Shown: positions 5,926 to 44,448 of the stretch, in pieces
How the letters are laid out: each line of letters opens with the position of its first letter
Position numbering within the stretch: the first letter of the stretch is position 1
DNA from: a virus
DNA: 47,278 nt
Strand: one strand, 5' to 3'
Virus record (IMG/VR): IMGVR_UViG_3300007345_000067
Location: 1 to 47,278 of that record
Position numbers and translations under genes: made by a program
Notes under the pieces: model-generated
The model's database searches: none
Told to the model about the DNA's origin: nothing
The model's input: only the letters and a program-made list of their open reading frames with translations

Positions 5926-5931
5926 AGTAAC

Positions 5932-8900
5932 TCAGTTGGTGGATGGGATTTCTATTTCGAGAGGGTCAACGTCTACGCGCTCTGCATTGACCATGTAAAA
6001 ATAATCAAGAGGGCGAGAGTCTTCAGAGAAGATATATACTTTATTATTCTCTATTCTTTCAACCCTCGGCGCCCCACTTGGGCCTATGGGGGTTAGGGAC
6101 ACGGTGATTGAGTCAGGGTCGACCAAGGCCACCCAGTAGTCAGGAAGGGAAATAATTGTCTCGGTACTCCGGCCGCGTACATAAACACCATTTTCTGGGC
6201 CTTCAAGGGAGCCATGGCGGAGTTTGTATCCCTCTTTGGTTGGGTGGTCAATAATAAACGATTTAGTTGTTGCAGCGAATGACCCGTTTACTTCAAGGTT
6301 ATAACTTGGGTTAATAACTCCAATGCCGACTTTTTGCCCACCTGCTGATATGACAACTCTAGGATTAGAACCACCAGCATCAGCGTAAGATCCCATCATT
6401 TCAAACGCTGTGCTGTTATTCAAATATGATTCAATTACGGAGCAATGCGTAGAATCAAGACGAGAGTAAATTCTTGTAGCATATGTTGTATAATTACCTG
6501 CTGCCCTTAGTTGTAGTGAACCATCAACATCTAATTTTACTGCGGGGTTATCGGTGCCAATACCAACATTACCACCGCTTAATATTGTTAGTTTTCCAGT
6601 TCCAGATCCAGAAATATTTCCGCCTGTTCCTAAAATGAGTGTATCGGATGAGTTACCATACAGTATATAACCAGAATCAACTCTGTCTGAATCTCCAAAA
6701 AGTACGCCAGTATTTCCAGAGTCACTTGATATTATAGAAATATATTGACTATCTGATCCATATATTTGTAATTTTTGACTTGGATTATCGGTGCCGATGC
6801 CGACATTTCCAGATGAAGTTACACGAACTTTTTCTGTCACGTTTGGGCCGCCAGGCCCTCTAGTTCCTATCGTTAATGCTCCATTAGTGTCACTTGCGTT
6901 TTCACTGACTACAGCTATACCAGCATAACAAGAACTACCTGTAGTGGCAGAAACACAACCTAAAATTAAATTAGTATAACCACCATTTGTTGCATTATCT
7001 AAAAATGTATGTGTATGTCCATTAAAATTAGTTGGAGAATATGTAGTTGCATCATTTTTTCTAACAAAAAGTTTTATATTATATGTATTATCCGTTCCGA
7101 TACCAACATTGCCAGTTGAAGTTATACGAAGTGCTTCTCCAACTCCTCCAATATAAAGTCCTATAGTTGAACCTTGAAGACCATTTGGAGCATAAGCAGA
7201 AGTTACTCTGTTATAAGAAACAATCGCCTGAGCATTATTTGGATTGAACTCTAGTCCAGTAGAACCATTACTTACAACTAGTTTTCCCTCTGGATTATTA
7301 GTCCCGATGCCGACATTGCCAGAGGCAGCAATTCGCATAGCAGGAGCTATACCGTTGATGTTATCAGTTGCTCCGTTTGCTGTTGTGCCTGCGTTGACAG
7401 AAAAATCTATTTTATTATTTCCTCCACCACTATCACAAGCAATGATCAATCTATCTCCGCCTGCCTCGTATCCAAAATAACCAACGCCATATCCAGAAGC
7501 ATGAGTTACTAATAAAGCATCCCCTCCATTATCTGCTCCTATGGTTAAATGACGAGTACCAGTTGAACCACTATCCGTAAAATCACCAGCTGCGGAAAGC
7601 GTTCCTAAACGCACATTTCCTCCTACATCTAGTTTTTGTGCTGGGTTTGTGCTGCCAATGCCTACGTTTCCGTTTATATCAATTCGAACCTGCTCAGAAA
7701 GAACTTCTGATGTATTTGCAGTGTTAAAGGTTAAAGCAGAAGCATCTTGAGTACCCCTATCTACGGTATTAATTGCCGCAACTACTCTTCCTCTACCTGA
7801 GTTTTGGCCGCTATTTGATCTAAATGCTATGTTATGACCAATATTATTAGAGGTATATGATCCTGTTGCTGATTCTACAGATATGGCATAGTCTCCAGGA
7901 TCAGCTGATAACGTTGTTGATGAACTAAATGATCCTCCATATACATGTAATTTTGACGCCGGATTTATGGTGCCGATGCCGACATTGCCAGTTGAAGATA
8001 CTACTATAGGTGTTCTGGCATATGAACCATTTACATCGTATTGATTTATTCCAAATGAACCTGTGCCGCCGCCGCCAGATCTGTCGTTGACACTAACACT
8101 AAGATTTCCACTGTTATCATCACTAGCAAGTTCAATCCAATTATATCCACCAGAAGATACTTGTAATCTTGCTGCAGTAACAGCAGAAGCACGAATATCT
8201 ACTTTTTTTATTGGATTATCAGTGCCAATGCCGACATTACCAGTTGAAGTTATACGAAGTCTTTCATCACCATTAGAATATAACGTAGTAAAATACGTTC
8301 CAGAACTATTATCTGCACCCATTCTTACTTCGCCAGTAGAAGTATTTGCGGAAAATACCGCTACTTGACCAGCACCACCGCCAGTCCAGTTTATAGCATA
8401 TTTTGGAACTGTTCCTCCAATATCTGTAGATAATCTTATATTTCCTTCTTCTATTTCTAATTTTTCTTGTGGATTATCAGTCCCGATGCCGACATTTCCA
8501 TCTTGGGATATTGTTACTGCCTCAATTTGAGACCCTTCTTGATTATCAGAAAAAATAGACAACGAGTTATTATTCCCAAGACGACCCCCCATATACTTAA
8601 TGGAGAATCCATATGCAGCAGAATCGGATTCTCCATCATGATCTAGTACACCCTCACCATCAACTCTCAATAATGTAACATTATTGTCGCCACCACCAGC
8701 ACCAACACGGATTGCAGTGCCGTTGTGTTCACTTATAAGACGAATGGTGGATGCTGATGTTTTTCCGAAGTCAAGTGTGTATTGTGGGTCAATGGTGCCA
8801 ATACCAACTCTGTTTGTGTCCTCGTCGATAAATAACGTTCCGCTATCAAAGTTTACATCACCACCTGTCTGGGTCAATCCACCACCATTAATCCTCAGAC

Positions 8901-17674: not shown

Positions 17675-20600
17675 ATGCTATCTGCATTAACTCTGAAGCA
17701 AATAGAGGCGATTACCTCAAACCTTCCTAAAATCATTAAGAGCTCTTTTGATGCGTATGAGTCAATTAACGGTAAGTTCAGCGTTAGTGTGCAAAGAAAA
17801 ACATATGAGGATATATACTACGATTTTTTCTCCTCTATAATTAAAAGAATTGAAAGAGAAGATGCCATTACAATACTGCCACTTTATGATAAATTGGCGT
17901 ACATGCTCGTCAACTTACAATTTAATGTAAGGCTATTTGTAGAGCTTACTTCTATAGTAGAAAAGGCAATTCTAGAGCTTACTATTAATAGTAATACACG
18001 TAATAGTCAACTAGAGCAGTTTGTTGAGACTTATATTGATAAAGTTATAAGTGCAGTTGCAGAGGAAAGAATTTTTCAAAAAGGGTTAGAAGCGGATCAG
18101 CTTATTCAACTTGTACAAGAATACGCACCTTCTTCGGTTGTAATAGAAGACACATTTAGATCCACTGACATAGATCATAGAACTATTTATCCTTTATTTG
18201 ATAGAAATAACTATTGGGAAGTTCAAAAAGAAAACTATGAAAACTTTGGCAGAGATAAATATTCTACAAGGGAAGTAACAATATACCAAGGTAAAGTATA
18301 TACGCTCAATCAAAATGTTTCAAAGCCTACAACTAAGGAATTTAGCCTGGATGAATGGGGCGAGTTTAGTTCAAAATTCTTATTGAAAAGTAACACTTTT
18401 CAAGAAAAACTTAAGTCAAACTTAAAGACTTATATTAATAGCTCGTTGGAAAATGTAGAAGACATAAATGGGATTATTTCTGACTCAAAAATCCAAGAGA
18501 AAAACAGCGTAATAACATACGACAAAGAAGATCTTAAGCTTACATTTGCTGGAGAAGGAGCTTCTATTACTGAAAACATCCTAAAATTAAAGACTCTTAT
18601 TAAATATTTTGGAAACCATGAAGCTTCGCCAGTAGGAAATATTGACTATATATCTAGATATTGTGAATACCTGTATGGGTCACTTTATGGCAGAATCATA
18701 GGAAATGGCTTTACGAGCCTTGACGGTTTTAACCTTTTAGGAAAATTTAATTTACTATTTTCTTATGGAGAAAAAATAAATAGAATTGCTGGGCTAAAAT
18801 TCTTAGAAAGTTTTAAGTCTTTAAAATCTTTTAAGCAGCGTATTACGCTGCCAGAAACAATCACGTTAACTAGTACAGATAAGAAAATTTATTCAAAAGC
18901 AAAATATAATCCTATCTACGCAAAATACTGTAATGGAATTGAAGATAGATTCTTCTTCCAAGAAATAAACCCGTACGTTGAAGCTATTGATGTTGATATC
19001 ATTCTCTTCGGAATAGAAAGACTTTTGAGCGTTGCGAATAGACTAGGTGATACTATCAATGCACTAAAGAGTAGTCTTAGTCAACAAGGTATATTACCAG
19101 GTTACGAAGGCCTTGGCCCCATCTCAATACAAATTGAAGAGCTAAGTAATATATTCATTTCCACAACAGAATTAGAAGAAAGTTACGCCAATTCAAAAAT
19201 TCTTCCTGGATTTAATGGAGCAATGGCAGGTCTTTTAAGATCTTATGGAAGGCTGTCTGATGTATTAATTACTCCTCCTTTGACAGGTAGTGCCTTGGCA
19301 AGATTAAGCTTGTGGGGGAGAAAAATTCAAGGCGTATTAGAAAGAATAGTATCTGACATCAGTATCATAAACTATGCTCCTGGAGACTTCATCCCAAACA
19401 TTTCCTTTAAAAAATCTACATTAGAAAGAGAAAAGCTTATTGATCAACTAAGATCTCTTAATTTTCAAGAAAGCGAAATTGATCTTTTTCTATCTGCCGA
19501 GACTTTTGAAGAGTTACTTATAAAGTTTGCACCTATTACCGATGCCGCGGACCAACTCTCATTCTTTAGAGGATATGAACTATCTCAGTTGATTTATGAG
19601 TTTGGCGGAGAAAGCGCAATTGACGCGTATATTTCTTATCTTTATGACTTTAGTGAGTCAAACTTAATAAACTTATTAACGTTTGCAACTAAAGATAAAA
19701 CTTCTGGTGTTACTTTTAATGAAAATCGCTATGGCAAATTGGTAGGTTTGCTGATTAACTTAACCTTTGCAATTAATCCAGATCAGCTAATATTATTTAA
19801 AGACTATTTAGCAGGAAATGACCTAGATCTATTTGAGTCTATTACCTACCTTCTTAAGAATAAAGAAGTTAATCTTTTATTAGACAAAGATAGTATAGAT
19901 CTTCTTCGTCCTATTACGGAGTCTTTGATTTCTGGTGCGTCTCCATTTGGATATAACTCCAGGTCTATGGGCTATGCAGAAATAAATAGAGAAGTGCCAC
20001 TTGCAGTGAAAAAATGGACAGAGCTTATTGGAAAAAATCTAGGAAATGCTTCTACGAATCTTATTCAGAACCTATATGATAAGAGTCAGGGACTAACTCC
20101 TAGAGAGTTAATTACAATTTTAAACACAGGCTCAGAGCATAATCATAATGACTATGGTCAGCTCATTGATGGGTACGAGGGCGGAAGATTAACTAAGCTA
20201 ATCAATTATGGATATCTTAGTGGCTTACTTCATAAACTAGGATATTACTCAAATTCTTATCAAATAAATAATTTTTATATTTCTGGATCTGGGCCAATAA
20301 GACTGGACTCATTAGTAGGGGTAGTAAGAAGCTTAGTTTCTTTAACAGATATTACTTTAACAAACTTTACCAACTCTATTGAGTATGACTTAAGCCAAGA
20401 TTCGGTTGACTTATATCCATTTGAAAACTTATTTAATACTCAAAACAAGAAAATTGAAGAAGTTTCTAAGTTAGTTAAAGGGCTTTCCCCTTCAAATGGA
20501 GACATTTCTACGATAGGACTTCCAACTGTGTCTGGGTTTTCAGACATCATGGGGTCACCTGGTATTGGAAATTCGCCTGTTCCAGAGTCTATACCGAGAG

Positions 20601-21532
20601 AAAATACCATAACCCCAGAACAAGCTAACTTACTTTCTCCTCAAATTAAAAATTGTTTTTCGTTTATTGCAAATAAAACCTCAGAAGATGAGAGATCAAA
20701 TGAAGTTACAAATAGATTTATTAGCTTTATTGAAGAAAATAAATTGATCGTTGGAGTTTCCGCAAAAGAAACAATTATTGAAGCTAACTCAAATACTTTA
20801 AAAGCAATAGATAAAATTAAAGATTTTAAAGCTCCAAAAGCGCTAGAAGATAAAGACAGAAACGCGGATGTTAAGATCCCCTCTTTCTATGAAGGATCTA
20901 GGCTACAAGATAAAGTTAGCCAAGAAGAGATTGACTTGTTACAAAGTCAAGGCCTATTAACCAAATTTGATCCAGTGAGCTCATGTAAAAGATTTGGAGG
21001 AGAAAATTGCGATTCAAGAATAGAATCAGGAGTTAACTTATGTGGTGATATTAATAATAGATCTACTTATTCACAGAGAGACACAACTCCAAGCCAAGTA
21101 TCTCAACCTGGATCTATAGGAGTAGATCGTCCTTTTGGATCTTTTGCGGAACTCAAGCCTGAAGAATTATTTTTACCCTATAGTCAAAATAACAAGCCTC
21201 CATATTTTGCTTTGCTGGGTAACGACGTTAAAATAAGCAATAACGGCAATCCAATTAAGCCATCTATTGATACAGAGCCACTGGTCTTTACAAAAGAACC
21301 TAACGTAGATGACTCTTTATACTCTTCGTATTATAACTCGGAATACGGATTAATTGAGGCCATCAAAGCGAAGTGGGAAAAAGACGAGCCGTTTAAATGT
21401 TCTTTATTAGAAGATCCGTATGCCTACCAAGCTTGCATGAACTTATTAAAATGCAAAAGATTTAAAAGAGGAGAAGGTACGTCATTCTTAAAATTCTGTC
21501 CTAAGACGCTATCAGGAGGATTATTAAAATGA
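17675..21532 (+). CDS. Very large unknown probable virion protein (1285 aa)
   Basis: The longest gene in the window. It begins MLSALTLKQIEAITSNLPKI and is rich in Ile, Leu, Asn and Ser, with alternating helical segments throughout. It shows no membrane segments and no long heptad coiled coil, so it does not look like a tape-measure protein. A repeated loop with LPGYEGLGPI and LPGFNGAMAG occurs near residues 475 and 510. The C-terminal 200 residues carry several cysteines (CKRFGGENCDSR, NLCGD, CSLLEDPYAYQACMNLLKC, FCPKT). It starts 28 bases after a GTTTAAAG element and overlaps the next gene by 4 bases (ATGA). A baseplate or internal head protein is possible; I recognise no family. Confidence 0.75.
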   Translation: MLSALTLKQIEAITSNLPKIIKSSFDAYESINGKFSVSVQRKTYEDIYYDFFSSIIKRIEREDAITILPLYDKLAYMLVNLQFNVRLFVELTSIVEKAILELTINSNTRNSQLEQFVETYIDKVISAVAEERIFQKGLEADQLIQLVQEYAPSSVVIEDTFRSTDIDHRTIYPLFDRNNYWEVQKENYENFGRDKYSTREVTIYQGKVYTLNQNVSKPTTKEFSLDEWGEFSSKFLLKSNTFQEKLKSNLKTYINSSLENVEDINGIISDSKIQEKNSVITYDKEDLKLTFAGEGASITENILKLKTLIKYFGNHEASPVGNIDYISRYCEYLYGSLYGRIIGNGFTSLDGFNLLGKFNLLFSYGEKINRIAGLKFLESFKSLKSFKQRITLPETITLTSTDKKIYSKAKYNPIYAKYCNGIEDRFFFQEINPYVEAIDVDIILFGIERLLSVANRLGDTINALKSSLSQQGILPGYEGLGPISIQIEELSNIFISTTELEESYANSKILPGFNGAMAGLLRSYGRLSDVLITPPLTGSALARLSLWGRKIQGVLERIVSDISIINYAPGDFIPNISFKKSTLEREKLIDQLRSLNFQESEIDLFLSAETFEELLIKFAPITDAADQLSFFRGYELSQLIYEFGGESAIDAYISYLYDFSESNLINLLTFATKDKTSGVTFNENRYGKLVGLLINLTFAINPDQLILFKDYLAGNDLDLFESITYLLKNKEVNLLLDKDSIDLLRPITESLISGASPFGYNSRSMGYAEINREVPLAVKKWTELIGKNLGNASTNLIQNLYDKSQGLTPRELITILNTGSEHNHNDYGQLIDGYEGGRLTKLINYGYLSGLLHKLGYYSNSYQINNFYISGSGPIRLDSLVGVVRSLVSLTDITLTNFTNSIEYDLSQDSVDLYPFENLFNTQNKKIEEVSKLVKGLSPSNGDISTIGLPTVSGFSDIMGSPGIGNSPVPESIPRENTITPEQANLLSPQIKNCFSFIANKTSEDERSNEVTNRFISFIEENKLIVGVSAKETIIEANSNTLKAIDKIKDFKAPKALEDKDRNADVKIPSFYEGSRLQDKVSQEEIDLLQSQGLLTKFDPVSSCKRFGGENCDSRIESGVNLCGDINNRSTYSQRDTTPSQVSQPGSIGVDRPFGSFAELKPEELFLPYSQNNKPPYFALLGNDVKISNNGNPIKPSIDTEPLVFTKEPNVDDSLYSSYYNSEYGLIEAIKAKWEKDEPFKCSLLEDPYAYQACMNLLKCKRFKRGEGTSFLKFCPKTLSGGLLK

Positions 21533-25904: not shown

Positions 25905-28900
25905 ATGGCTAATCCTGTAAACATCAATGTAGGCGCTATTCAGCGCCCTGGAGTGTTTGTTACTCAGTCTTCGACTGGTGGATTACCTCAACCCCTAGCC
26001 TCTCATGCTATTGGTTATATCTTTGGATCTACTCCTGTAGACCCATATGATGAAAATCCCGTCGATGAGTATTCAGCTCTCCCTCCTTACCAACCTACAC
26101 AGATTGGTTCGTTAGAGGATTTTGTTCAGAAAGCTGGTGGTGCTCCTACCGCCGGTAATAACCCACAATCAATGATCTCCTACGATTCCGTAAGAGCATT
26201 CTTTGAAAACGTGGGCGTGAACGGAATTCTGTACTATACTCGCGTAACACCTACACCTGAAACTAAGGTTGTAGTAGATAAAGGAGCAGGTTGGAACCTG
26301 TTCTCAATCAAGATTGGCGACAGATACTTTGGAGATAAGTCACTCGGCATTAATGATGCGGATGGCGTAGAAATCAGAGTAATTACAACCACCGCCCTTG
26401 ATTCTAATGATAATGCTTTTGATATTGTAGGATATCTTAAGCAAGACGATCCTGACTTCAATACTTTCTACAGAATTGAGCAAGATGACGAAGAAGCCAA
26501 AAACGCCACCTTCAGAATCTACTCTAAGGACGTAAGAGTTATCCCAACTGTTCAGAGCTTCAAGGCATATCAGATTTCTGATACCGCTTATGCAACTCCA
26601 ACAGATGCCGGTGAAGTAAGCCGTTATGTCCCAACCAAAGAACTCAACTTCCGTTGTGTTTCTAGAGACGTAACAACCCAAGAGCCCATTCTCTTTGTCT
26701 CTGGTGCTGCAATTGGTAACTTCTTAGAAGAAACCTCTGTTACAGCCAAGACAAACGGAACTGCTTCATTCACAGCCTCTACCGGTGCCGTAGTAGTGGA
26801 AGATATTACCGATCTTTCGATTGGTACTGATGCTCTTGCCGCTGGTGATAAGGTCGTATTTGAAGGTATTGACCCAGGTCAAGTTGCTTATCCTGGAGCT
26901 GGTGAGCTTGCTGCTGGAAATATTTTCTACAGCACTGTTTACGAGGTCTTAAGTGTAGATGCTCCCAATAACTCCTTTATTCTTGACAACGGATCAGGTG
27001 CCGCTTTAACCTTCACTTCTGATGATCTTGCTTCGGTAATCAGAGTACGTAGACTAGCTTATGATCCTTCGGTTCTTGCCGACAACCTCCAAGCTGTTGA
27101 AGATTTCCTTCTTGATCAGGAAACCTATGCAACTGCTGGTGACATTCCCGACAACAAAATTGTAGCCGTTTCTACCGACGAAAGAGTTGGTAAAGATGAC
27201 CACATTCGCTGGGCTGACTCATTTGCAGCTTACTATCAGTGGGATGCTTCTGGATCTGCTTTTACCGCCGGTGCTGATGGCTCTGGTCTAACTGCTGCTC
27301 CTCAAGGAACAATCACTTCTGTTGGTGGTAACGTAACCAGAACAGGATATGTACCCGATAGCGTTCAGGTCTTCTACGTAAACGTTGCTGGTGAGAACAG
27401 AGTTGTTATTGCCAATGGCGCAACTCCTGCTGAACTTACCGAAAGCATCTCTACTTCACTCAGAGAGATCCTCGAAGAGAAGAACCTCGATGCATATTAC
27501 ATCGTTGAGTCTGTTGAAGTTGATTATGAAACCGCTCTTGGAGTTGGTGGATATGCTCCTAACAACGGTGAAGCAATCGGAACAACTCTTGGAGTAACCG
27601 GTGCTCCTGCTCTCCGCCCATCTAGCGAAGGCAAGACCCTAACTGGAACTTCTGCAGTTACCTCTGGTAGCACAACCATTCAAGGCGCTACTTCCTCTCA
27701 AACTGGAACAATTGAGATCCAAGCCAATGGCTCACTTCTCGGTTCTAGCACTGAGTTCCTTAGCGTAATTGCTCCTGGATACAGAATCCTTGTTGGATCT
27801 GATACCTACGAGGTTGTAAGTGTTGCTTCTAACACTCAGGCAATCGTCCGTAATCCTTCTGGAGCTACCGTAGCCTCTGGTACTTCATACAGCACAGTTG
27901 CTACTAAGTTCACCGAAGAGCTTTATGCCGGTTCACACGTTGTGATCAACGGCTACCGCTTTGAGGTCAGCAGCGTAACCAACGACGCAGCTTTCGTTGT
28001 TGATACCGCTCCTACCTTTACCGCAAGTTCAACTATAGTCTATCTTGATAGCTCAATCAGCAATGGTTTCTATCGTCATGACTATGTTCTCAGAGTGAAG
28101 ATCACTTCTAAGAACGGTATTCCTTCTCCTGTTGTTCCTGGCCTTAACCGCTATGGTCAAAAGGATGCCAATATCGTCAGAATCAACTCACTCGATGAGG
28201 CAGCTGATTTTGCCAACTACAAGCTTTCTGCTAAGGCTCATTCACAAGACTTTGTCTATGCTATTGAGCAGGGTATGGGATCTGGTGATTATCGCCCTGG
28301 CTTCCTCTTTGCCCCTGAGGCATTTGGTGGATTTAAATCAGCAGTCGGTGGATTAAGCAAGACTCAGGCCCGTGAAGAAAGAGTAAAAGTTACTCAGGCG
28401 CTCCTCAGAGCCGCTGAAGGTAAGCTTGGTGAGGTTGAGGGTATCTCTGGTACTCAACATATTGCTCTTATCGATTGCGGAGCTGATGAACTAAGTCTCA
28501 GCGAAGTACAAGATGAGTTAGCTTACATTAAGGGAATTGCTGGAGCTCCATTTGGCCACGCTGCCTTCTACGCTCCTTATATCAAGAACGCTGCTGATCG
28601 CTTTGTACCACCTAGTGGTTTCATTGCCGGTATTGCTTGTTCAAGATACGTAAACGAAGGATTCCAACAAGCCCCTGCTGGTGCAAGATATCCGCTAAGA
28701 GGAGCCAATGCCCTCCGCTTTGATATCACCGCTCAACAGCAAGAAGTAACATATCCTCTAGGCCTCAATCCAATTAGAAGCCTTCCTAACAGAGGTATTG
28801 TTGCATGGGGTGCTCGTACAACTAGCTCCAATGCTCTCTTCAAGTTTGTCAACACTCGTGCGATCCTTAACGTACTCCTTGATGTTCTTGCAAGAAGCTT

Positions 28901-29243
28901 CGATGATATCCTCTTTGAGCAAATTGATTCGGCCGGTACACTCTACGCCAGAGCGAAGTCTATTGCCACTCAGGTAATGGGTCAACTCTATCGTCAGGGT
29001 GCGCTCTTTGGCGCAAGACCAGAACAAGCTTATCTAGTTGTTTGTTCTGATGCTAATAACGCTGTTAGTGATCTAGAAAACGGAACGCTTAGACTCGATG
29101 CTTATGTGGCCACATCGCCAACTCTTGAGCGTCTTGTTGTTACCGTTGTAAGAACACCTGCTGGTCAGGTTGCTCAGGTACAAGATACCTTCTCTAGAAA
29201 CATTGACAGATTCGACTATCTTCTTAACGCAACTACAGTCTAA
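25905..29243 (+). CDS. Tail sheath protein (1112 aa)
   Basis: The contractile sheath subunit. The N-terminus (INVGAIQRPGVFVTQSSTGG) leads into the IGYIFGSTP strand typical of sheath proteins. The C-terminal domain carries the family pattern: RGIVAWGART, then FKFVNTRAILNVLLDVLARS, then QVMGQLYRQGALFG, then VVCSDANN. At 1112 residues it is longer than T4 gp18 (659) because of beta-rich insertions between about residues 270 and 700 (threonine/alanine-rich, for example GTSAVTSGSTTIQGATSSQT) that probably decorate the tail surface. Two upstream promoter-like elements are present, TATAAATA at 25843-25850 and GTTTAAAG at 25858-25865. Codon use is more C-ending than in the neighbouring 1285-residue gene, in line with high expression. 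Confidence 0.92.
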   Translation: MANPVNINVGAIQRPGVFVTQSSTGGLPQPLASHAIGYIFGSTPVDPYDENPVDEYSALPPYQPTQIGSLEDFVQKAGGAPTAGNNPQSMISYDSVRAFFENVGVNGILYYTRVTPTPETKVVVDKGAGWNLFSIKIGDRYFGDKSLGINDADGVEIRVITTTALDSNDNAFDIVGYLKQDDPDFNTFYRIEQDDEEAKNATFRIYSKDVRVIPTVQSFKAYQISDTAYATPTDAGEVSRYVPTKELNFRCVSRDVTTQEPILFVSGAAIGNFLEETSVTAKTNGTASFTASTGAVVVEDITDLSIGTDALAAGDKVVFEGIDPGQVAYPGAGELAAGNIFYSTVYEVLSVDAPNNSFILDNGSGAALTFTSDDLASVIRVRRLAYDPSVLADNLQAVEDFLLDQETYATAGDIPDNKIVAVSTDERVGKDDHIRWADSFAAYYQWDASGSAFTAGADGSGLTAAPQGTITSVGGNVTRTGYVPDSVQVFYVNVAGENRVVIANGATPAELTESISTSLREILEEKNLDAYYIVESVEVDYETALGVGGYAPNNGEAIGTTLGVTGAPALRPSSEGKTLTGTSAVTSGSTTIQGATSSQTGTIEIQANGSLLGSSTEFLSVIAPGYRILVGSDTYEVVSVASNTQAIVRNPSGATVASGTSYSTVATKFTEELYAGSHVVINGYRFEVSSVTNDAAFVVDTAPTFTASSTIVYLDSSISNGFYRHDYVLRVKITSKNGIPSPVVPGLNRYGQKDANIVRINSLDEAADFANYKLSAKAHSQDFVYAIEQGMGSGDYRPGFLFAPEAFGGFKSAVGGLSKTQAREERVKVTQALLRAAEGKLGEVEGISGTQHIALIDCGADELSLSEVQDELAYIKGIAGAPFGHAAFYAPYIKNAADRFVPPSGFIAGIACSRYVNEGFQQAPAGARYPLRGANALRFDITAQQQEVTYPLGLNPIRSLPNRGIVAWGARTTSSNALFKFVNTRAILNVLLDVLARSFDDILFEQIDSAGTLYARAKSIATQVMGQLYRQGALFGARPEQAYLVVCSDANNAVSDLENGTLRLDAYVATSPTLERLVVTVVRTPAGQVAQVQDTFSRNIDRFDYLLNATTV

Positions 29244-34781: not shown

Positions 34782-35052
34782 CTTGGATAAATAATCTTTT
34801 TCCTTTTTCAATATTTCTTCGGAGGGTATTTAAGGTAATGCACCTATGCCCTCCGTTTAATGTAATCCCGTGGCTTTTGGGATATTTTGTAGTTACCTCT
34901 CCGTTTGATTTAAGAAGAGTGTAGTTTGGATCAGCAATACCCACCCATCTTTGAGGTCGTTTGTTTGCCATAAGGTAGGGCTCTTCTCTAACAAATAGAG
35001 ATAGCCCGTACTCTTGGCTAAAGTATTCATTTATTGCATCAAAGCTCTTCAT
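34774..35052 (-). CDS. Small unknown protein after DNA polymerase (92 aa)
   Basis: Read from the ATG at 35052 (MKSFDAINEYFSQEYGLSLF), which overlaps the DNA polymerase stop by 14 bases; the longer frame from 35253 would overlap the polymerase by 215 bases. The second half is basic (KSHGITLNGGHRCITLNTLR and IEKGKRLFIQVS). It could bind nucleic acid or assist the polymerase, since it is in the same transcript, but there is no recognised domain. It converges on the plus-strand tail gene with an 8-base overlap. Confidence 0.6.
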   Translation of the reverse strand: MKSFDAINEYFSQEYGLSLFVREEPYLMANKRPQRWVGIADPNYTLLKSNGEVTTKYPKSHGITLNGGHRCITLNTLRRNIEKGKRLFIQVS

Positions 35053-37726
35053 TGAAGATGGGAATAAGATCGTGGATTGTAACAGATTGTCCATTCTTTT
35101 CGGACTTTTGTTGGGATACTGTTTTTGTGTTTGCATCGGCGGCTTTGCGGAAAATGTGATCGATTTCAATAGAAGAGAGCCATGCGTTAGCAACTGGAAG
35201 CTCATAGATTTCATAGTTGTAACGAAGCCAAGCCCAACACCATGCATGAGCAACTTGGAACAAAGCGGCTACCTTCTCTGCTTCTTTCTTTGGACACATA
35301 TACAAAATACTGTCATGAACTGACATATTAAACTTAGCATTCAAGCCATGGTCTTTAATAAGCCATTCCATTGCAGCCATGAAGGCATGGAGCATTGCAC
35401 TGCCGGTGGATTGAATACACCAGTTATTCCTCATAGTCCAGAAATCATCGCCAACAGAGCTAGGACGGAAGGCAGTGGACATTTTAGTCCCGCTTAGAGG
35501 GTTGATAGGAGTGTTTTCACAGGCAATCCGAGCCATCTCATTGTAGGCATAAGAGTCAGATCCACCGATCAACTCTCGCATACCTCGATAAGCTTTACGA
35601 CCCTTCTTTAGTTCAATGAGCTTGCGTCCCATGTCAACAGCTTGTTTCATAGGAATGGATTTATTACCCTTGCGAATGGTATTAGCAAGAGTCTTAGCTC
35701 CACAGCCATAAAGCATTCCGTAGTTACAGCCCTTGGCCACAGCTCGAGAGATTCCGATTGCTTTGGCAGTCATCGAGTGCATGTCAGATCCGTTGTCTTT
35801 AGATCCGGCAAGGATGGAGTGAGAGAACTGAGTACTCCCGGCTACTTTATGAAACGAGTCAGCAAAGATGGAAGCCACAACAGCCTCTTGGGCATCAAAA
35901 TCTGATTCAACAAATACCCAACCATCAGGAGCTTGAACTCGTGTTTTAATTTCCGAACCGATCTTATCGTATTTTGGGTCCGGCACAGTAAGCCATAGGT
36001 TCTCTCCAGCACGATTAGTAGAGGTATTGTGAGGAACCGCAGCTGGAACGATGATATTGAAGTCTTTACCGAGAGGGTTATTTGTTTTTTCCACGAGTTG
36101 CTCGCGGACTCGGCTTCGAACAGACGTCCAGTAAGATACATTAATTGCAAGTTTGATAAGTTCTTTTGCTTGTGGTAGGTCGGAACTAAGCATTCCAGAC
36201 TCAAAGTCATCGGCATAGTCCTTAGACAATACACCTCCAACGTTTTCTCCTTCGCCCTTAGGATGGGGTACACGAACGTATTCACCGACTTCTTCGTTAA
36301 AGAAGCACCATCCTTTGTTAGAAAAATAAGTCATAGGCTTATCGTCCCACTTGAGTCGGAGAAGAAAGTGAGACAAACGGTTCTTTGTGGAGATACCACC
36401 AATTACAAGCTTATTGCCCTCTTCAGTTTTTTCAATCTCAGAAACACTTCGGAGCCATTTGGGGATTCCATACCACTTCGATGAAGGCTTTCCAGCTTTA
36501 GTTAGTTTGAAGTTGCATTCCCAATCCATCTGAGATAGCCAAGGATCAGCTTCAATATCGATCTCTCCTTGATTCCATGCGTCATACACCTCTTGGGCCA
36601 TTTGGCCAAGGATTTCTTCTTGCTTGGAGATAGAGTCATGCCAGATATTCTCACAGCCATCAAACCACTCTTTCCAGTCATCGACTACAGGAAGAATGGC
36701 GGAAGAGATGCCAAAGTGACCAATTAGAGTGGTCAGAGACGGATTATTCTGGAGATACTTAAGAACAAGAATAGAAAACAATTCCTGAGTAATCTCAACG
36801 TCCTTAAGAGCGTATTGAGTTAGTTCTTCATTAAGAGCGTTGATTTGCTCCATGGAGTCGCTAACAACAAACACGTCGCGAATCTTTTTATCCTCGGCCT
36901 CCAAAGGAGTCATAGGCTGACAATGAAAGTTATAGCAATCAATCAAGCCATTAAGAGATCCCTTATCAGCCCAGATAGGATCAGCACGAAAACCAGACTT
37001 CTTTGCTGCTTTCTGAACATACCACCATCGCTGACCAGACGCCAACCCACTCACGTTAATATGAGCGGACATGGTGTCAAACCAATAGTTCTTTTTGGTA
37101 ATGTCATATGACTCTTTGCACCGAGCACGGTCAAATGCTACGTTGTGAGCAATGAAGATCTTTCCGTCGCCAACAGGAACCAAACACGGCTCATAGTCAA
37201 TGGTCGGATCGACATAGGTCTCATGCATCCAAATATAGTATGCAACTGGGCTAACAGCGGTTGCGAGAATAGCATGACCAAAGTCGGTTCCTTTGACGAA
37301 AGTCTCGCAGTCAAACACTGCAATATCTTCTTCGATTCCGTCTACTCTTGAGAGATCAAAGCCGTCATCGGTCGGCGTATATTTGATCCATCCCGGCGTG
37401 TTAACGATATAATCTGAGCTAGGCTTTGAGGGTAGGTCGGTATATGCAAATTCTTTAAGCTTTGTAGCTACATCTCCAATAATGTCCTGAGAGATTACAT
37501 CAAAGTGTTCTTTAATATTTTTCCCTTGAAGCTTAGGAAGCTGAAAGTCTTCCATAAAGAAACCCTGTGGGTTTTCAATAGGAAAACTAACTCCGAAGTT
37601 TTCCATAGAGGACTTGATGCTTTTAATTGTATCTTTCTTTACCGAAGCAGTATCTACATTGCCAAACACCTGACGATTCATTTTGTCTGAGAGAGTCGCG
37701 TATCCCAAGACGTTGAGTTTTGACAT
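35039..37726 (-). CDS. polA: DNA polymerase family A, mitochondrial gamma-like, with 3'-5' exonuclease
   Basis: A replicative family A DNA polymerase of 895 residues. Exonuclease motifs: DCET at residues 139-142 and HNVAFDRAR at 194-202, followed by FDTMSAHINVSGLASGQR. Polymerase motifs: A at 609-614 (catalytic Asp609, Glu614), B at 661-670 (RAVAKGCNYG), C at 804-805 (His-Asp). The exonuclease AFDRAR...DTMSxHxxxSGL segment and the pattern GSDMHSMTAKAIGISRAVAK closely match the layout of mitochondrial DNA polymerase gamma. Ordinary Pol I and T7 polymerase lack these. A TTGACA-18-TATAAT promoter lies directly upstream (37749-37778). The same kind of polymerase is what I recall for the S-TIM5 phage lineage. 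Confidence 0.95.
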   Translation of the reverse strand: MSKLNVLGYATLSDKMNRQVFGNVDTASVKKDTIKSIKSSMENFGVSFPIENPQGFFMEDFQLPKLQGKNIKEHFDVISQDIIGDVATKLKEFAYTDLPSKPSSDYIVNTPGWIKYTPTDDGFDLSRVDGIEEDIAVFDCETFVKGTDFGHAILATAVSPVAYYIWMHETYVDPTIDYEPCLVPVGDGKIFIAHNVAFDRARCKESYDITKKNYWFDTMSAHINVSGLASGQRWWYVQKAAKKSGFRADPIWADKGSLNGLIDCYNFHCQPMTPLEAEDKKIRDVFVVSDSMEQINALNEELTQYALKDVEITQELFSILVLKYLQNNPSLTTLIGHFGISSAILPVVDDWKEWFDGCENIWHDSISKQEEILGQMAQEVYDAWNQGEIDIEADPWLSQMDWECNFKLTKAGKPSSKWYGIPKWLRSVSEIEKTEEGNKLVIGGISTKNRLSHFLLRLKWDDKPMTYFSNKGWCFFNEEVGEYVRVPHPKGEGENVGGVLSKDYADDFESGMLSSDLPQAKELIKLAINVSYWTSVRSRVREQLVEKTNNPLGKDFNIIVPAAVPHNTSTNRAGENLWLTVPDPKYDKIGSEIKTRVQAPDGWVFVESDFDAQEAVVASIFADSFHKVAGSTQFSHSILAGSKDNGSDMHSMTAKAIGISRAVAKGCNYGMLYGCGAKTLANTIRKGNKSIPMKQAVDMGRKLIELKKGRKAYRGMRELIGGSDSYAYNEMARIACENTPINPLSGTKMSTAFRPSSVGDDFWTMRNNWCIQSTGSAMLHAFMAAMEWLIKDHGLNAKFNMSVHDSILYMCPKKEAEKVAALFQVAHAWCWAWLRYNYEIYELPVANAWLSSIEIDHIFRKAADANTKTVSQQKSEKNGQSVTIHDLIPIFNEEL

Positions 37727-37748: not shown

Positions 37749-37778
37749 ATTATAGACTATAGAAGGGCTTGCTGTCAA
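37749..37778 (-). promoter_or_regulatory. Sigma-70-type promoter of DNA polymerase
   Basis: Minus-strand TTGACA (37773-37778), 18-base spacer, TATAAT (37749-37754), both perfect. The polymerase ATG is at 37726, 22 bases after the -10. Expected to be read by host RNA polymerase early in infection. Confidence 0.8.
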
Positions 37779-38476
37779 TACTGGATTAAAAATTCTTCAC
37801 GGTCAACATAATACAGCCCGACGCCTTCAAAGTTAGTTGCGTCGATGATGCGTAAGTTTTTGCGTATGTACGGATAGCCATAATGGCCAAATATATACGT
37901 ATCTTCTTTGCAAGGACAATATTGCTCTAATCTGTCCTTCCACCAAGGAAACCCAGGACCTGATAGCACTCCTGGTCGGTTGGCTTTTGTAATCTCTTCG
38001 TAAAAAAGAGCGTGACCAAGCCGATATCTCCTAGAGTCGGTTTGTATTGTGGCCGTAATAGGGCACCTTGCAAGCCAAGATATAATATCAATCCTGGTAT
38101 TAAAGTCTAGTTCTTTGAGGCACCTTAGAGTGTACTTAGTTTCTCGCTTTATTATTTTTTCTTCTGGAGTAACTAGATTTTCTAAAATATAATTTTCGTT
38201 ATTACCAAGCAACAGAGTCATTTCCCCGTTTAGGTTTTTGCTCCTTATATACTGAAGCATTCTAACCGGAGAGGTTTTTCTTGAGCGTTTGAAGAAAGGC
38301 TTGTGATGAATGCTGTCTCCGATGATTACGTGATGGTAATTTGGAAACTTATCTACAATCTTTTCAAGAGTATCTATGCGGCCATGCAAATCACCAACTA
38401 TGCAATAATTACTCCCCTTCGGTAATGATAGGTGCCCACCAATCTGGTACGACTGTTTTCCAGGTTGCAAAGTCAT
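37775..38476 (-). CDS. Calcineurin-like metallophosphoesterase with altered metal motifs
   Basis: The metallophosphoesterase fold is shown by CIVGDLHGR, VIIGDSIHH, LLLGNNENY and FGHYGYP in the usual order. The standard second and third motifs GDxxDRG and GNHE are changed here: Asp to His in GDSIHH and His to Asn in GNNE. Two metal ligands may therefore be weakened, and activity could be altered or lost. The frame could start at 38524 or at 38476 (MTLQPGKQSYQIGG); I use 38476, which overlaps the upstream gene by 68 bases. There is no good start after that gene's stop. The promoter of the polymerase overlaps its 3' end. Confidence 0.75.
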   Translation of the reverse strand: MTLQPGKQSYQIGGHLSLPKGSNYCIVGDLHGRIDTLEKIVDKFPNYHHVIIGDSIHHKPFFKRSRKTSPVRMLQYIRSKNLNGEMTLLLGNNENYILENLVTPEEKIIKRETKYTLRCLKELDFNTRIDIISWLARCPITATIQTDSRRYRLGHALFYEEITKANRPGVLSGPGFPWWKDRLEQYCPCKEDTYIFGHYGYPYIRKNLRIIDATNFEGVGLYYVDREEFLIQY

Positions 38477-38924
38477 GTTTATGCATATTGTAGTATTTAC
38501 GGTATGCTTTGACCGCGTCTCCATCTACTTTACACTCATCTGGCATTGCTTGGGCAAACTCTGTCATTTCATGAGGGAGTTTTTTAGATAGCATAATTCG
38601 AGTGTTTTGAAGTGAGAGAAGACTATCCCGGCCGCCGTGCTCTTTGCCATATCGCTTTTCAAACTCATTGCAAAGATTCCAGGTAAGTTGGTAAGTCCAG
38701 TTCCAATTACCCCAGCTTTCTCCCATCCAAAGAGTACACGGGTGTTTGCGGAAAGATTTTGTCTTGTAAAAATCTCCGTTAGTTCGTTTGGCTGGATCTA
38801 GGTCATTAAGCACAGCAACAATGCTCATCATTTGAAGATGTTCTACAATCATCTTATTGACGTGCTTATCACAATGATACTCAGCCGCCTTAATAGGATC
38901 AGTGTCCAATACAAAGACGTTCAT
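38409..38924 (-). CDS. Conserved phage protein with HCDKHV motif (171 aa)
   Basis: A 171-residue protein beginning MNVFVLDTDPIKAAEYHCDK followed by HVNKMIVEHLQMM. The early H-C-DKH-V-K pattern recurs in phage proteins of unknown function, several cyanophage examples among them. The middle has aromatic-rich helices (TLWMGESWGNWNWTYQLTW) and the end reads YYNMHKHDFATWKTVVPDWW. It could be an enzyme acting on nucleic acid or nucleotides, since it lies in the replication region, but I know no proven activity. A promoter-like TTGACA-17-TAATAT lies 25 bases upstream (38949-38977). Confidence 0.7.
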   Translation of the reverse strand: MNVFVLDTDPIKAAEYHCDKHVNKMIVEHLQMMSIVAVLNDLDPAKRTNGDFYKTKSFRKHPCTLWMGESWGNWNWTYQLTWNLCNEFEKRYGKEHGGRDSLLSLQNTRIMLSKKLPHEMTEFAQAMPDECKVDGDAVKAYRKYYNMHKHDFATWKTVVPDWWAPIITEGE

Positions 38925-38948
38925 AATAAAAACAATATACCTACTATT

Positions 38949-38977
38949 ATATTAATCGAAGTCGGTAGGTTTGTCAA
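38949..38977 (-). promoter_or_regulatory. Sigma-70-type promoter of HCDKHV gene
   Basis: TTGACA (38972-38977), 17-base spacer, TAATAT (38949-38954); an overlapping TATAAT gives a 20-base spacer. The ATG is at 38924. The element lies in the end of the 48-residue gene. Confidence 0.65.
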
Positions 38978-39098
38978 GATCTTGATTCAATTCTGCATAG
39001 GCTTCGGAAAGTATTGCATAGATAATATATGCTGTTCCTAAAAGCCCTATAGAAAGGAGGATTATTACTCCCCAAACTGGGTCAGTTGTGTTTGCCAT
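38952..39098 (-). CDS. Small membrane protein (48 aa)
   Basis: Read from the ATG at 39098: MANTTDPVWGVIILLSIGLL, then GTAYIIYAILSEAYAELNQD and a short acidic end. One membrane-spanning helix covers about residues 8-30. The earlier ATG at 39191 would overlap the upstream small gene more heavily and adds another hydrophobic stretch. It is tightly linked to the 42-residue gene (17-base overlap). Size and one-helix layout recall small photosystem or cytochrome subunits, but no sequence match is claimed. Its 3' end contains the promoter-like element of the next gene. Confidence 0.55.
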   Translation of the reverse strand: MANTTDPVWGVIILLSIGLLGTAYIIYAILSEAYAELNQDLDKPTDFD

Positions 39099-39210
39099 CA
39101 CTAAAAGGCTGCCAATGTTCCCATCCATATTTATGAATCGCCCAAATGCCAGCAATAGGAACTCCAATAAGAATAGCAGATAAAAATCCAAGAGACCATG
39201 GGTTTTCCAT
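39082..39210 (-). CDS. Small membrane protein (42 aa)
   Basis: Starting at 39210 (MENPWSLGFLSAILIGVPIA), where a good AAGG ribosome site lies 6 bases upstream. Other in-frame ATGs at 39234 and 39333 lack one or overlap the 198-residue gene. One membrane helix spans about residues 6-25, followed by an aromatic, His-rich tail (HKYGWEHWQPF). Located between the 198-residue membrane protein and the 48-residue protein. No family is recognised; a phage-encoded small helper of a membrane complex is a guess. Confidence 0.55.
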   Translation of the reverse strand: MENPWSLGFLSAILIGVPIAGIWAIHKYGWEHWQPFSDGKHN

Positions 39211-39235
39211 GACGTGCCTTACAAATAAAGTCATT

Positions 39236-39832
39236 CTAGTGAGCAGTTTCGTTTTCTTTGTACATATCGGTATCACAATCTCCTGACATAGTGGCGATAT
39301 CTCCGCCGATCTCACCAGCCGTATCCTGTGCAAACATTGCTACCCATCCCGCAGCAAGCCAGCCAATATAAGGAATACCACTAAACAATGGGGCAACAGA
39401 AGCACCCATAGAAGCTCCAACCATTCTACCTGCATTTTCGCCACCACCTTCCGCCTTGATACACTCGAGTTGTTGTGCAGTTAACTTTCCCTCAGCACCT
39501 CCTAGATGCCTTGCCCCATCCATTGTATATTCTTCGTCGTAGGTAGTTGTAGATCTTCCACCTACACCAAAAAATCCATTTTCTTTATCTACAAACCTTC
39601 TAACCCCCATTACTTTTGGGTCATTAGATCTATAATCTATTTCATATCCGTCTTTGCTCGCTTTAACTTTGTAAGAAGTGTAGTCATTTATAGGGAGATT
39701 GATTATTGGCACGGACGGTTCTGTTTTTAAAAGATGCCCTAAAACGCCTATATGAGCAACACCTATCAATGCTCCTACTCCTAGGGTGAACCACTTGAAC
39801 AAAGAAGGCTTGCTATTATTATTTTCTAGCAT
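39236..39832 (-). CDS. Conserved cyanophage membrane protein (198 aa)
   Basis: An N-terminal membrane segment (FKWFTLGVGALIGVAHIGVL, residues about 12-32) is followed by a soluble domain (SYKVKASKDGYEIDYRSNDP) and a Gly/Ala-rich second hydrophobic region near residues 135-170 (AGRMVGASMGASVAPLFSG, YIGWLAAGWVAMFAQD). It ends in a short acidic tail with Cys. I recall similar hypothetical proteins in cyanomyoviruses. A terminator separates it from the upstream CP12-like gene; an AAGGA ribosome site precedes its start. Function unknown; association with the host membrane is inferred from the hydrophobic segments. Confidence 0.7.
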   Translation of the reverse strand: MLENNNSKPSLFKWFTLGVGALIGVAHIGVLGHLLKTEPSVPIINLPINDYTSYKVKASKDGYEIDYRSNDPKVMGVRRFVDKENGFFGVGGRSTTTYDEEYTMDGARHLGGAEGKLTAQQLECIKAEGGGENAGRMVGASMGASVAPLFSGIPYIGWLAAGWVAMFAQDTAGEIGGDIATMSGDCDTDMYKENETAH

Positions 39833-39850
39833 AGAATCCTTTTTATATGT

Positions 39851-39875
39851 TAAAAAAGACCCTAATTTAGGGTCT
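39851..39875 (-). terminator. Rho-independent terminator after CP12-like gene
   Basis: Read on the minus strand: AGACCCTAA pairs with TTAGGGTCT with almost no loop beyond the A-T centre, followed by TTTTTT. It ends 14 bases beyond the CP12-like stop. Confidence 0.75.
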
Positions 39876-39888
39876 CATATACTAATCT

Positions 39889-40101
39889 TTAATCCTCGTA
39901 TATTCTGCACTCATCTGCATCTGGATTTACATCACAATATAGTTCTAATGGAGTAGGATCATGGTGATCTTCTGGATGTTTTTTATGATATTCTTCTAGT
40001 TCTTCTAACTCGCTTTCGATATGTCTGCGACGCTGTGGAGAAATGTTAGGATTTTTAAGTTCCTCGCGATCTTGAGAAATATGTTTTTCTATGCTTTCCA
40101 T
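39889..40101 (-). CDS. cp12: CP12-like Calvin cycle regulator
   Basis: CP12 holds GAPDH and phosphoribulokinase in an inactive complex and so lowers Calvin cycle flux. The C-terminal 20 or so residues carry the CP12 signature: PLELYCDVNPDADECRIYED, with Cys56 and Cys65 spaced for a regulatory disulfide. The N-terminal half is charged and helical and has no cysteine, so only the C-terminal disulfide can form; host versions usually have two pairs. Cyanophage CP12 genes are known, and together with transaldolase they are thought to divert carbon into the pentose phosphate pathway. The gene is 70 residues long and ends just before a strong minus-strand terminator. Confidence 0.88.
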   Translation of the reverse strand: MESIEKHISQDREELKNPNISPQRRRHIESELEELEEYHKKHPEDHHDPTPLELYCDVNPDADECRIYED

Positions 40102-40119
40102 GGTTATTTTAAATAAGAG

Positions 40120-40281
40120 TTAAGGATTTTGAAGTACGCAATCTTTTCTAACAACTTTTTTTAGCTCGATTATAATCTCTTCTTTTGCCTTGTCTGTTAG
40201 GAAATCGTTTTTACTTACCCTTTCGATCATTTCTGAAACGTCTCCACAGACTAGTTTTACACCCAGTAGTAGTTCTATCAT
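40120..40281 (-). CDS. Small protein coupled to nuclease gene (53 aa)
   Basis: A short frame read from 40281: MIELLLGVKLVCGDVSEMIE, then RVSKNDFLTDKAKEEIIIEL, then KKVVRKDCVLQNP. It overlaps the stop of the thermonuclease gene by 4 bases (ATGA), which makes it a likely translated gene. It is helical with two cysteines. It lies between the nuclease and CP12-like genes, 18 bases before the latter. No family is recognised. Confidence 0.6.
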   Translation of the reverse strand: MIELLLGVKLVCGDVSEMIERVSKNDFLTDKAKEEIIIELKKVVRKDCVLQNP

Positions 40282-43449: not shown

Positions 43450-43710
43450 TTAGACAAATGCGTCAGGAGTTGATTCTCCTCGCATAAGGTCATATAAAGC
43501 TTTAGACCGTTTGTAGTGCTTTTCGTGATAGTCCATCCAAGCTTTAACTTCTGAAAGAATTTCTTCGTACGCTGCCTTAGGAGTAGTTTTTTCGTCGGTA
43601 AGATAGTCGCCAATAGCATCACCCATACGATCTTTACGCTGGGCTTCATACGTTGTTTTTGCAGCGTTGTGGGGATAGGAGTTAATAGACGGGTTGATTT
43701 CTTCAGTCAT
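43450..43710 (-). CDS. Conserved cyanophage protein (86 aa)
   Basis: A helical, charged 86-residue protein (MTEEINPSINSYPHNAAKTT, then DAIGDYLTDEKTTPKAAYEE, then VKAWMDYHEKHYKRSKALYD). The DAIGDYLTDE segment is a recurring motif in cyanophage proteins that I remember, but the role is not established. It shares a base with the upstream bilin reductase gene (stop/start overlap at 43710) and ends one base before tRNA-Asn. Function unassigned. Confidence 0.7.
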   Translation of the reverse strand: MTEEINPSINSYPHNAAKTTYEAQRKDRMGDAIGDYLTDEKTTPKAAYEEILSEVKAWMDYHEKHYKRSKALYDLMRGESTPDAFV

Positions 43711-44342
43711 TAGTATGTAAACAAAAAGTTGTTAACAAAGTCCTCTGATTTCTCTTCTCCAAAGTTAGACTTTAGATACCCAGCAACTGGATCGAGATCT
43801 CTCATGTATTTATCAAAGTTGGCATAGCGGTCAATAGTTTTGCCCTCAGGCCGATTTGAATAGAGCAGATGGGTGTAAACCCTCAAGTAATCTTTAAAGG
43901 TTTCTAGGTGGTTTTGAACCTCATCCGCAGTACATTTTACCACATATGCATGAGAAGAGAAATGGTTTCCAGGTTCAAAAAATCTTATATCAGTGTAAGT
44001 CCTTCTAAGAAATTTTGTTTCAAAAAGATAGTTGGGTTTAGGATGCTGAAAATCAAATACAATAATTACTTTCTTTTCAAAAAATCCCATTAGATCCATA
44101 CCAAAGCACGGCATACCGTAGGGCATGTACTCTGGCTCTGTATTTGGATAGATAATGTTATTGTAAATACAAGACTTATCTCCCCAAATCTCTGCTTCTC
44201 TAGACTTAAGAATATATCTCCCAGAATAGGTCTTTGCAGTTAGGTTTAATTTTTTGCCCTTCCAATCGGCCCAAGTCTCTTCTTCTGTCAGAGGAAGGAT
44301 GTCAAATAATGCCCTTTTGTAGTCTTTCCATAGATCTTTCAT
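43710..44342 (-). CDS. Ferredoxin-dependent bilin reductase (PebS/PcyX type)
   Basis: These enzymes reduce biliverdin with electrons from ferredoxin to give phycobilins for light harvesting. Start at 44342 behind a GAGG ribosome site; longer frames start without one. The family core is clear: MPYGMPCFGMDLMGFFEKKV at about 73-92, with FGMDLMGF, followed by VFDFQHP at 95-101. Cyanophages carry PebS, which makes phycoerythrobilin in one enzyme, and metagenomic phages carry PcyX. I cannot separate these by eye, so no symbol is given. It lies in an operon with small membrane proteins and a glutaredoxin-like gene. Confidence 0.88.
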   Translation of the reverse strand: MKDLWKDYKRALFDILPLTEEETWADWKGKKLNLTAKTYSGRYILKSREAEIWGDKSCIYNNIIYPNTEPEYMPYGMPCFGMDLMGFFEKKVIIVFDFQHPKPNYLFETKFLRRTYTDIRFFEPGNHFSSHAYVVKCTADEVQNHLETFKDYLRVYTHLLYSNRPEGKTIDRYANFDKYMRDLDPVAGYLKSNFGEEKSEDFVNNFLFTY

Positions 44343-44448
44343 AGGTACCTCTAGGGTAGTGAGTTTCGGGATTAGAATACAAAATGCTCGCTGCGGCCAC
44401 AAAAAGAGAGATTACAAATGTTGTGAAAATTGCCCCGGCTATATTCAT
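44302..44448 (-). CDS. Small membrane protein (48 aa) overlapping bilin reductase
   Basis: A 48-residue frame read from 44448: MNIAGAIFTTFVISLFVAAA, then SILYSNPETHYPRGTYERSM, ending RLQKGII. It starts inside the stop of the 65-residue gene with a 4-base ATGA overlap, a good sign of real translation. It ends 41 bases into the bilin reductase gene. One membrane helix at residues 3-22. The fit between coupling and start makes it plausible although short. Confidence 0.55.
   Translation of the reverse strand: MNIAGAIFTTFVISLFVAAASILYSNPETHYPRGTYERSMERLQKGII

Follow-up and report, generated by a model that had tools for sequence, protein, structure and literature searches.

Polymerases of the gamma family have been reported from cyanophages A-HIS1/2 (Chan et al. 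2011) and S-TIM5 (Sabehi et al. 2012), and further from S-CBWM1 (Xu et al. 2018) and Mic1, as recounted in PMC7156551 and PMC4928673. That mitochondrial Pol gamma came from a phage had been proposed earlier by Filee et al. 2002, according to PMC7156551 and PMC3914683. The tree presented in PMC7156551, an unrooted neighbour-joining tree, led to the conclusion only that the enzymes of phages and mitochondria have a common ancestor. The gene analysed here adds a member to this family described in 2011-2012; what is added beyond that is the size and spread of an uncultured group, an outgroup-rooted tree in which Mic1 pairs with the eukaryotes, and a difference in polymerase motif C.

A Pol gamma gene in an uncultured relative of S-TIM5

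The window, i.e., the whole stretch of DNA analysed, is a virus record from IMG/VR, 47,278 bases long, and it belongs to an uncultured cyanobacterial virus related to cyanophage S-TIM5. Along its entire length, its polymerase has 86-87% identity with those of S-TIM5 (genus Aurunvirus), S-TIM54, S-TIM61 and S-TIM66, with which it shares the start, the catalytic motifs and the neighbouring genes, the genes that flank it also matching S-TIM5. At the DNA level, the polymerase gene is about 79% identical to that of S-TIM5. The link to the S-TIM5 lineage, which a sequence-only reading had drawn, is thus borne out. The polymerases of S-CBWM1, Mic1, A-HIS1 and A-HIS2 are 31-36% identical to that of the window, and share its family and domain order. 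In megablast comparisons, about 57-61% of the length of the right half of the window aligns with the S-TIM phages at 78-79% identity, and part of the left half does so at 74-77%. The window also encodes a transaldolase (talC), a ferredoxin-dependent bilin reductase and a staphylococcal-nuclease homologue, which are in keeping with a cyanophage, and a cyanobacterium would be the host. S-TIM5 differs in holding a ptoX-gnd-zwf stretch between the nuclease and DNA-binding protein genes, which is missing in the window (positions 38924-40278, compared with 1242-6806 of L058).

Several other genes of the window can be mentioned. The gene directly upstream of the polymerase gene (37775-38524, minus strand) codes for a calcineurin-like phosphoesterase and shares an overlap with the end of a pyrimidine-dimer-glycosylase-like gene; the S-TIM5 gene at this position is unnamed, and in the uncultured record L091 the polymerase is immediately preceded by an ORF that looks like a similar phosphoesterase. 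The bilin reductase (43710-44402, minus strand; PF05996, E 4.1e-16) is a light-harvesting pigment gene. The tail sheath protein (25905-29243, plus strand), with 1112 residues, is unusually long and matches its own PHROG (17610). Neither Pfam nor PHROG gave a match for a 1285-residue ORF (17675-21532, plus strand); the corresponding region of S-TIM5 encodes a virion structural protein of about that size (53150-57022).

The polymerase gene occupies positions 35039-37726 of the minus strand, exactly where the sequence-only reading had placed it. It starts with ATG and runs for 895 codons with no internal stop, and both segments quoted in that reading are present, the exonuclease segment at residues 194-228 (HNVAFDRAR...FDTMSAHINVSGL) and the polymerase segment at residues 646-665 (GSDMHSMTAKAIGISRAVAK). 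The features are the following:

35039-37726, minus strand: DNA polymerase gamma gene, 895 residues (Pfam, PHROG, PDB, relatives, tree, model)
36764-37549, minus strand: 3'-5' exonuclease domain of Pol gamma type (PF18136), residues 60-321 (E 2.1e-51)
37295-37315, minus strand: Exo I, FDCETFV (D139, E141), from alignment columns
37127-37147, minus strand: Exo II, HNVAFDR (N195, D199), from alignment columns
36788-36814, minus strand: Exo III, YALKDVEIT (Y305, D309), from alignment columns
36287-36487, minus strand: compact exonuclease-polymerase spacer that lacks the accessory-interacting insert of animals (from the profile aligned with human and yeast chains)
35255-35968, minus strand: family A polymerase domain match (PF00476), residues 587-824 (Pfam)
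35885-35905, minus strand: polymerase motif A, SDFDAQE (D609, E614), from alignment columns
35699-35746, minus strand: polymerase motif B, RAVAKGCNYGMLYGCG (R661, K665, Y669, Y673), from alignment columns
35303-35323, minus strand: polymerase motif C, SVHDSIL (H804, D805, with Ser806 for Glu), from alignment columns

The window thus encodes an intact DNA polymerase gamma. In Pfam, PF18136, the exonuclease domain of the mitochondrial polymerase, scores 175 bits against a cut-off of 26.7, and the DNA_pol_A domain PF00476 is matched with an E-value of 3.4e-15; PHROG 22619 is matched over the full length of the protein. In a sequence search against the PDB, the best match was yeast Mip1 (E = 2.9e-120), followed by mouse and human POLG chains (E 1e-87 to 1e-80). 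Pol I chains gave weak matches at best (E = 0.001), and T7 polymerase was absent from the list of solved structures matched. Given these E-values, with Mip1 and POLG far ahead of Pol I, the resemblance to Pol gamma goes far beyond chance.

The exonuclease and polymerase residues were read off an alignment of 49 family A polymerases. All of those named in the list above, from D139 to D309 in the exonuclease and from D609 to D805 in the polymerase, are kept in the window polymerase. In motif B, it shows a Tyr where the mitochondrial enzymes have Tyr, while S-CBWM1 and the A-HIS phages have a Phe there. Motif C reads HDS and not HDE. This variant is common to the S-TIM5 clade, including the divergent L091, in contrast with the S-CBWM1-like phages, A-HIS, Mic1 and the mitochondrial enzymes, which keep the Glu. 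HDS more likely reflects natural variation than decay, because the T5-type polymerase VAH1 and vibriophage JSF33 have it too. The replacement of Glu by Ser could alter kinetics or fidelity.

Predicted structure and the accessory-subunit interface

An AlphaFold2 model of the window polymerase, built from the protein and 25 uncultured relatives (the window and IMG/VR sequences only), reached a mean pLDDT of 85.4 and a pTM of 0.84. When this model was compared with the PDB by Foldseek, the first 36 places were all taken by mitochondrial Pol gamma chains, with TM-scores of 0.76-0.88 by query length and the best E-value (3.7e-58) for Mip1; the next matches were phage G20c Pol I, phiVC8, T7 and Klenow, with TM-scores of 0.33-0.40. 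The predicted overall fold is that of Pol gamma.

Yeast Mip1 is the closest relative among solved structures, both in sequence and in fold, and it has a similar single-subunit layout. The phage-sequence profile aligns end to end with it in one continuous stretch, from residue 14 to 949. Mip1 differs in a short extra spacer loop (about residues 485-521) and in a long C-terminal extension past the aligned part. Animal POLG holds the same exonuclease and polymerase domains, with the highest TM-score of the range, and differs in its spacer. In animals, the spacer holds accessory-interacting and intrinsic-processivity subdomains, the former being a metazoan feature and not one of the whole Pol gamma family (PMC4419789). 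Two stretches of the human spacer, one roughly 65 residues long (about 470-533) and the other roughly 120 (about 593-712), have no phage counterpart in the profile alignment. An accessory-subunit interface, which had been proposed as something to look for in a structure prediction, is therefore absent: in the profile alignment to the human and yeast chains, the animal-type inserts are missing and no POLG2-type accessory-interacting determinant is present in the window polymerase. The enzyme is best compared with the single-subunit Mip1.

Phylogenetic placement and direction of transfer

A maximum-likelihood tree (LG+C20+F+G4, PMSF) was built from 22 phage and three eukaryotic Pol gamma sequences together with 24 outgroup polymerases, which comprised T7-like, T5-like, crAss-like and other phage rows as well as bacterial Pol I. 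The eukaryotic rows are PDB chains as printed by the search, in which the human and mouse spacers are incomplete; the Mic1 and L091 sequences were spliced together over their introns, and one residue at an L091 joint was filled by analogy. In this tree and in a second one of 46 rows, for which phages were sampled more widely, a branch with support of 100/100 separates phage and mitochondrial Pol gamma from all outgroup rows. In the first tree, T7, HTVC041P, BL64, SP6 and S-SRP01, as well as bacterial Pol I, lie on the opposite side of this branch from the window polymerase, which groups with S-TIM5 and L003 (100/100).

These trees bear on the reading of the gene as a T7-like or Pol I-like phage enzyme whose likeness to Pol gamma is limited to short family A motifs. 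Motifs A, B and C are indeed common to all family A polymerases, and the weak Pol I matches in the PDB search would also fit. Against this stand the match to a Pol gamma-specific exonuclease domain and a similarity to Mip1 that spans the whole protein, and the tree split together with the gap in TM-scores rules out a T7-like or Pol I identity, the probability of which we regard as practically negligible. The layout had been assigned to Pol gamma rather than to Pol I or T7 from the letters alone, with a maximum-likelihood tree of family A polymerases suggested as a check; Pfam, the PDB matches, the TM-scores and now the tree agree with that assignment, the window polymerase falling outside the T7-like and Pol I clades.

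Within the Pol gamma group, yeast, mouse and human Pol gamma join the Microcystis phage Mic1 with support of 100/99, nested inside the phages, and the same pairing with the same support was recovered in the second tree. When the polymerase part was analysed alone and with no outgroup, Mic1 and the eukaryotes again grouped together (SH-aLRT 99), and for the exonuclease part, also with no outgroup, Mic1, the divergent L264 and the eukaryotes came together (92), their internal order not being fixed. Forcing all phages into one clade cost 9.9 and 6.6 log-likelihood units (AU p = 0.115 and p = 0.193, respectively).

The nesting of the eukaryotes inside the phage group fits a transfer from phage to mitochondrion, the idea raised by the sequence-only reading. 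The trees favour this direction, but not significantly, as the AU test does not reject a clade made of phages only. Tentatively, the animal and fungal enzyme may have arisen from within the living cyanophage radiation, with Mic1 as the nearest sampled phage and the S-TIM5 type as an earlier branch. The opposite course, in which phages captured Pol gamma from a eukaryote and would thus be the derived side, appears unlikely. It could draw on the very long outgroup branch, on the AU result and on the small eukaryotic sample of three sequences, all from opisthokonts, but the best trees of both data sets place the eukaryotes as sister to Mic1, and this pair is retained when the outgroup is removed from the polymerase-domain tree. 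Phage diversity also exceeds the sampled eukaryotic diversity, and the phage enzymes are reported to have a common origin with the fungal and animal ones and not with those of photosynthetic eukaryotes (PMC7156551).

Uncultured relatives and the search for bacterial copies

Over 100 records of uncultured relatives of the window polymerase were found, and phage Pol gamma diversity comprises four deep groups and two long single branches. Single-sequence scans with A-HIS1 and S-CBWM1 yielded no further relatives. No full-length bacterial copy was found in the GTDB genome collection and none among plasmids. In 386 cyanobacterial genomes, the matches were short and partial (ORFs of about 190-208 residues), with no full copy. 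No full copy was found either in 385 alphaproteobacterial genomes, in a search that had no positive control match, although the model used did detect the window gene in a separate search.

Two of the uncultured records, L264 and L266, are viral contigs of 77 kb and 119 kb with no psbA or psbD matches, and their Pol gamma genes diverge strongly from the others, at about 30% identity; further phage lineages or hosts may be behind them. In L091 (IMGVR_UViG_3300045051_001326), two inserts, at about 5812-6737 and 6922-7858, split the Pol gamma gene, one of them at motif A and the other at motif B. Their matches to the group I intron model RF00028 are weak (E 1.7e-7 and 0.0095) and below the curated cut-off, as is that of the group I-like intron of Mic1 (E 1.9e-10), which also sits at the motif A position. 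Each L091 insert has an ORF with no Pfam match, the start of which looks by eye like a GIY-YIG homing endonuclease, so these ORFs are possible homing endonucleases.

A probable phage replicase

It is almost certain, in our view, that the window gene encodes the polymerase with which an S-TIM5-type cyanophage replicates its DNA, a family A enzyme of the gamma family that consists of a single chain and proofreads. Enzymatic activity, proofreading and a part in phage replication would all follow from its conserved features. The gene is very probably the phage replicase, since each of 15 related phage records (some of them fragments) has exactly one PF00476 match and none has a family B polymerase, in a survey that covered families A and B. 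The same 15 records were also screened for further mitochondrial enzymes of phage-like kind: no DnaB-type helicase (PF03796) was matched, nor was a T7-type RNA polymerase (PF00940), the latter in a search with no positive control match, which makes this negative a weak one.

According to its architecture, which is that of the Mip1 catalytic core, the enzyme would carry out processive DNA synthesis with proofreading and would need no animal-type accessory subunit. The N-terminal exonuclease would clear mispaired 3' ends, and the C-terminal polymerase domain would extend primers by two-metal-ion catalysis through Asp609 and Asp805. Its partners would probably be the primase, helicase and flap endonuclease of the phage itself, which are annotated in S-TIM5 together with gyrase, NrdA/NrdB and ThyA; primase and helicase genes were not identified within the 47-kb window, itself a fragment.

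A decaying or non-essential extra copy, distinct from the replicase, has also been considered, as Ser replaces the motif C Glu. Every other catalytic position is intact, HDS is fixed in the S-TIM5 clade and recurs in VAH1, and no other family A or B polymerase was found in the related records. In addition, codon comparison with the S-TIM5 gene gave a dN of 0.09 and a dS of about 1.5, the latter being near saturation and thus rough, values that point to strong purifying selection. Decay is accordingly judged very improbable, and the gene is best read as that of the replicase.

Implications for the Pol gamma family

The window polymerase bears on the question of where the mitochondrial enzyme comes from. 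To our knowledge, the animal and fungal mitochondrial replication enzyme has not been found in the bacteria ancestral to mitochondria, and we know of no outside kin of mitochondrial Pol gamma other than these phage relatives. With a large uncultured group at hand, a phage origin can be tested by dense sampling and not just on a few isolates. Structural and biochemical studies could also make use of the phage homologue, as a compact Pol gamma with no accessory subunit.
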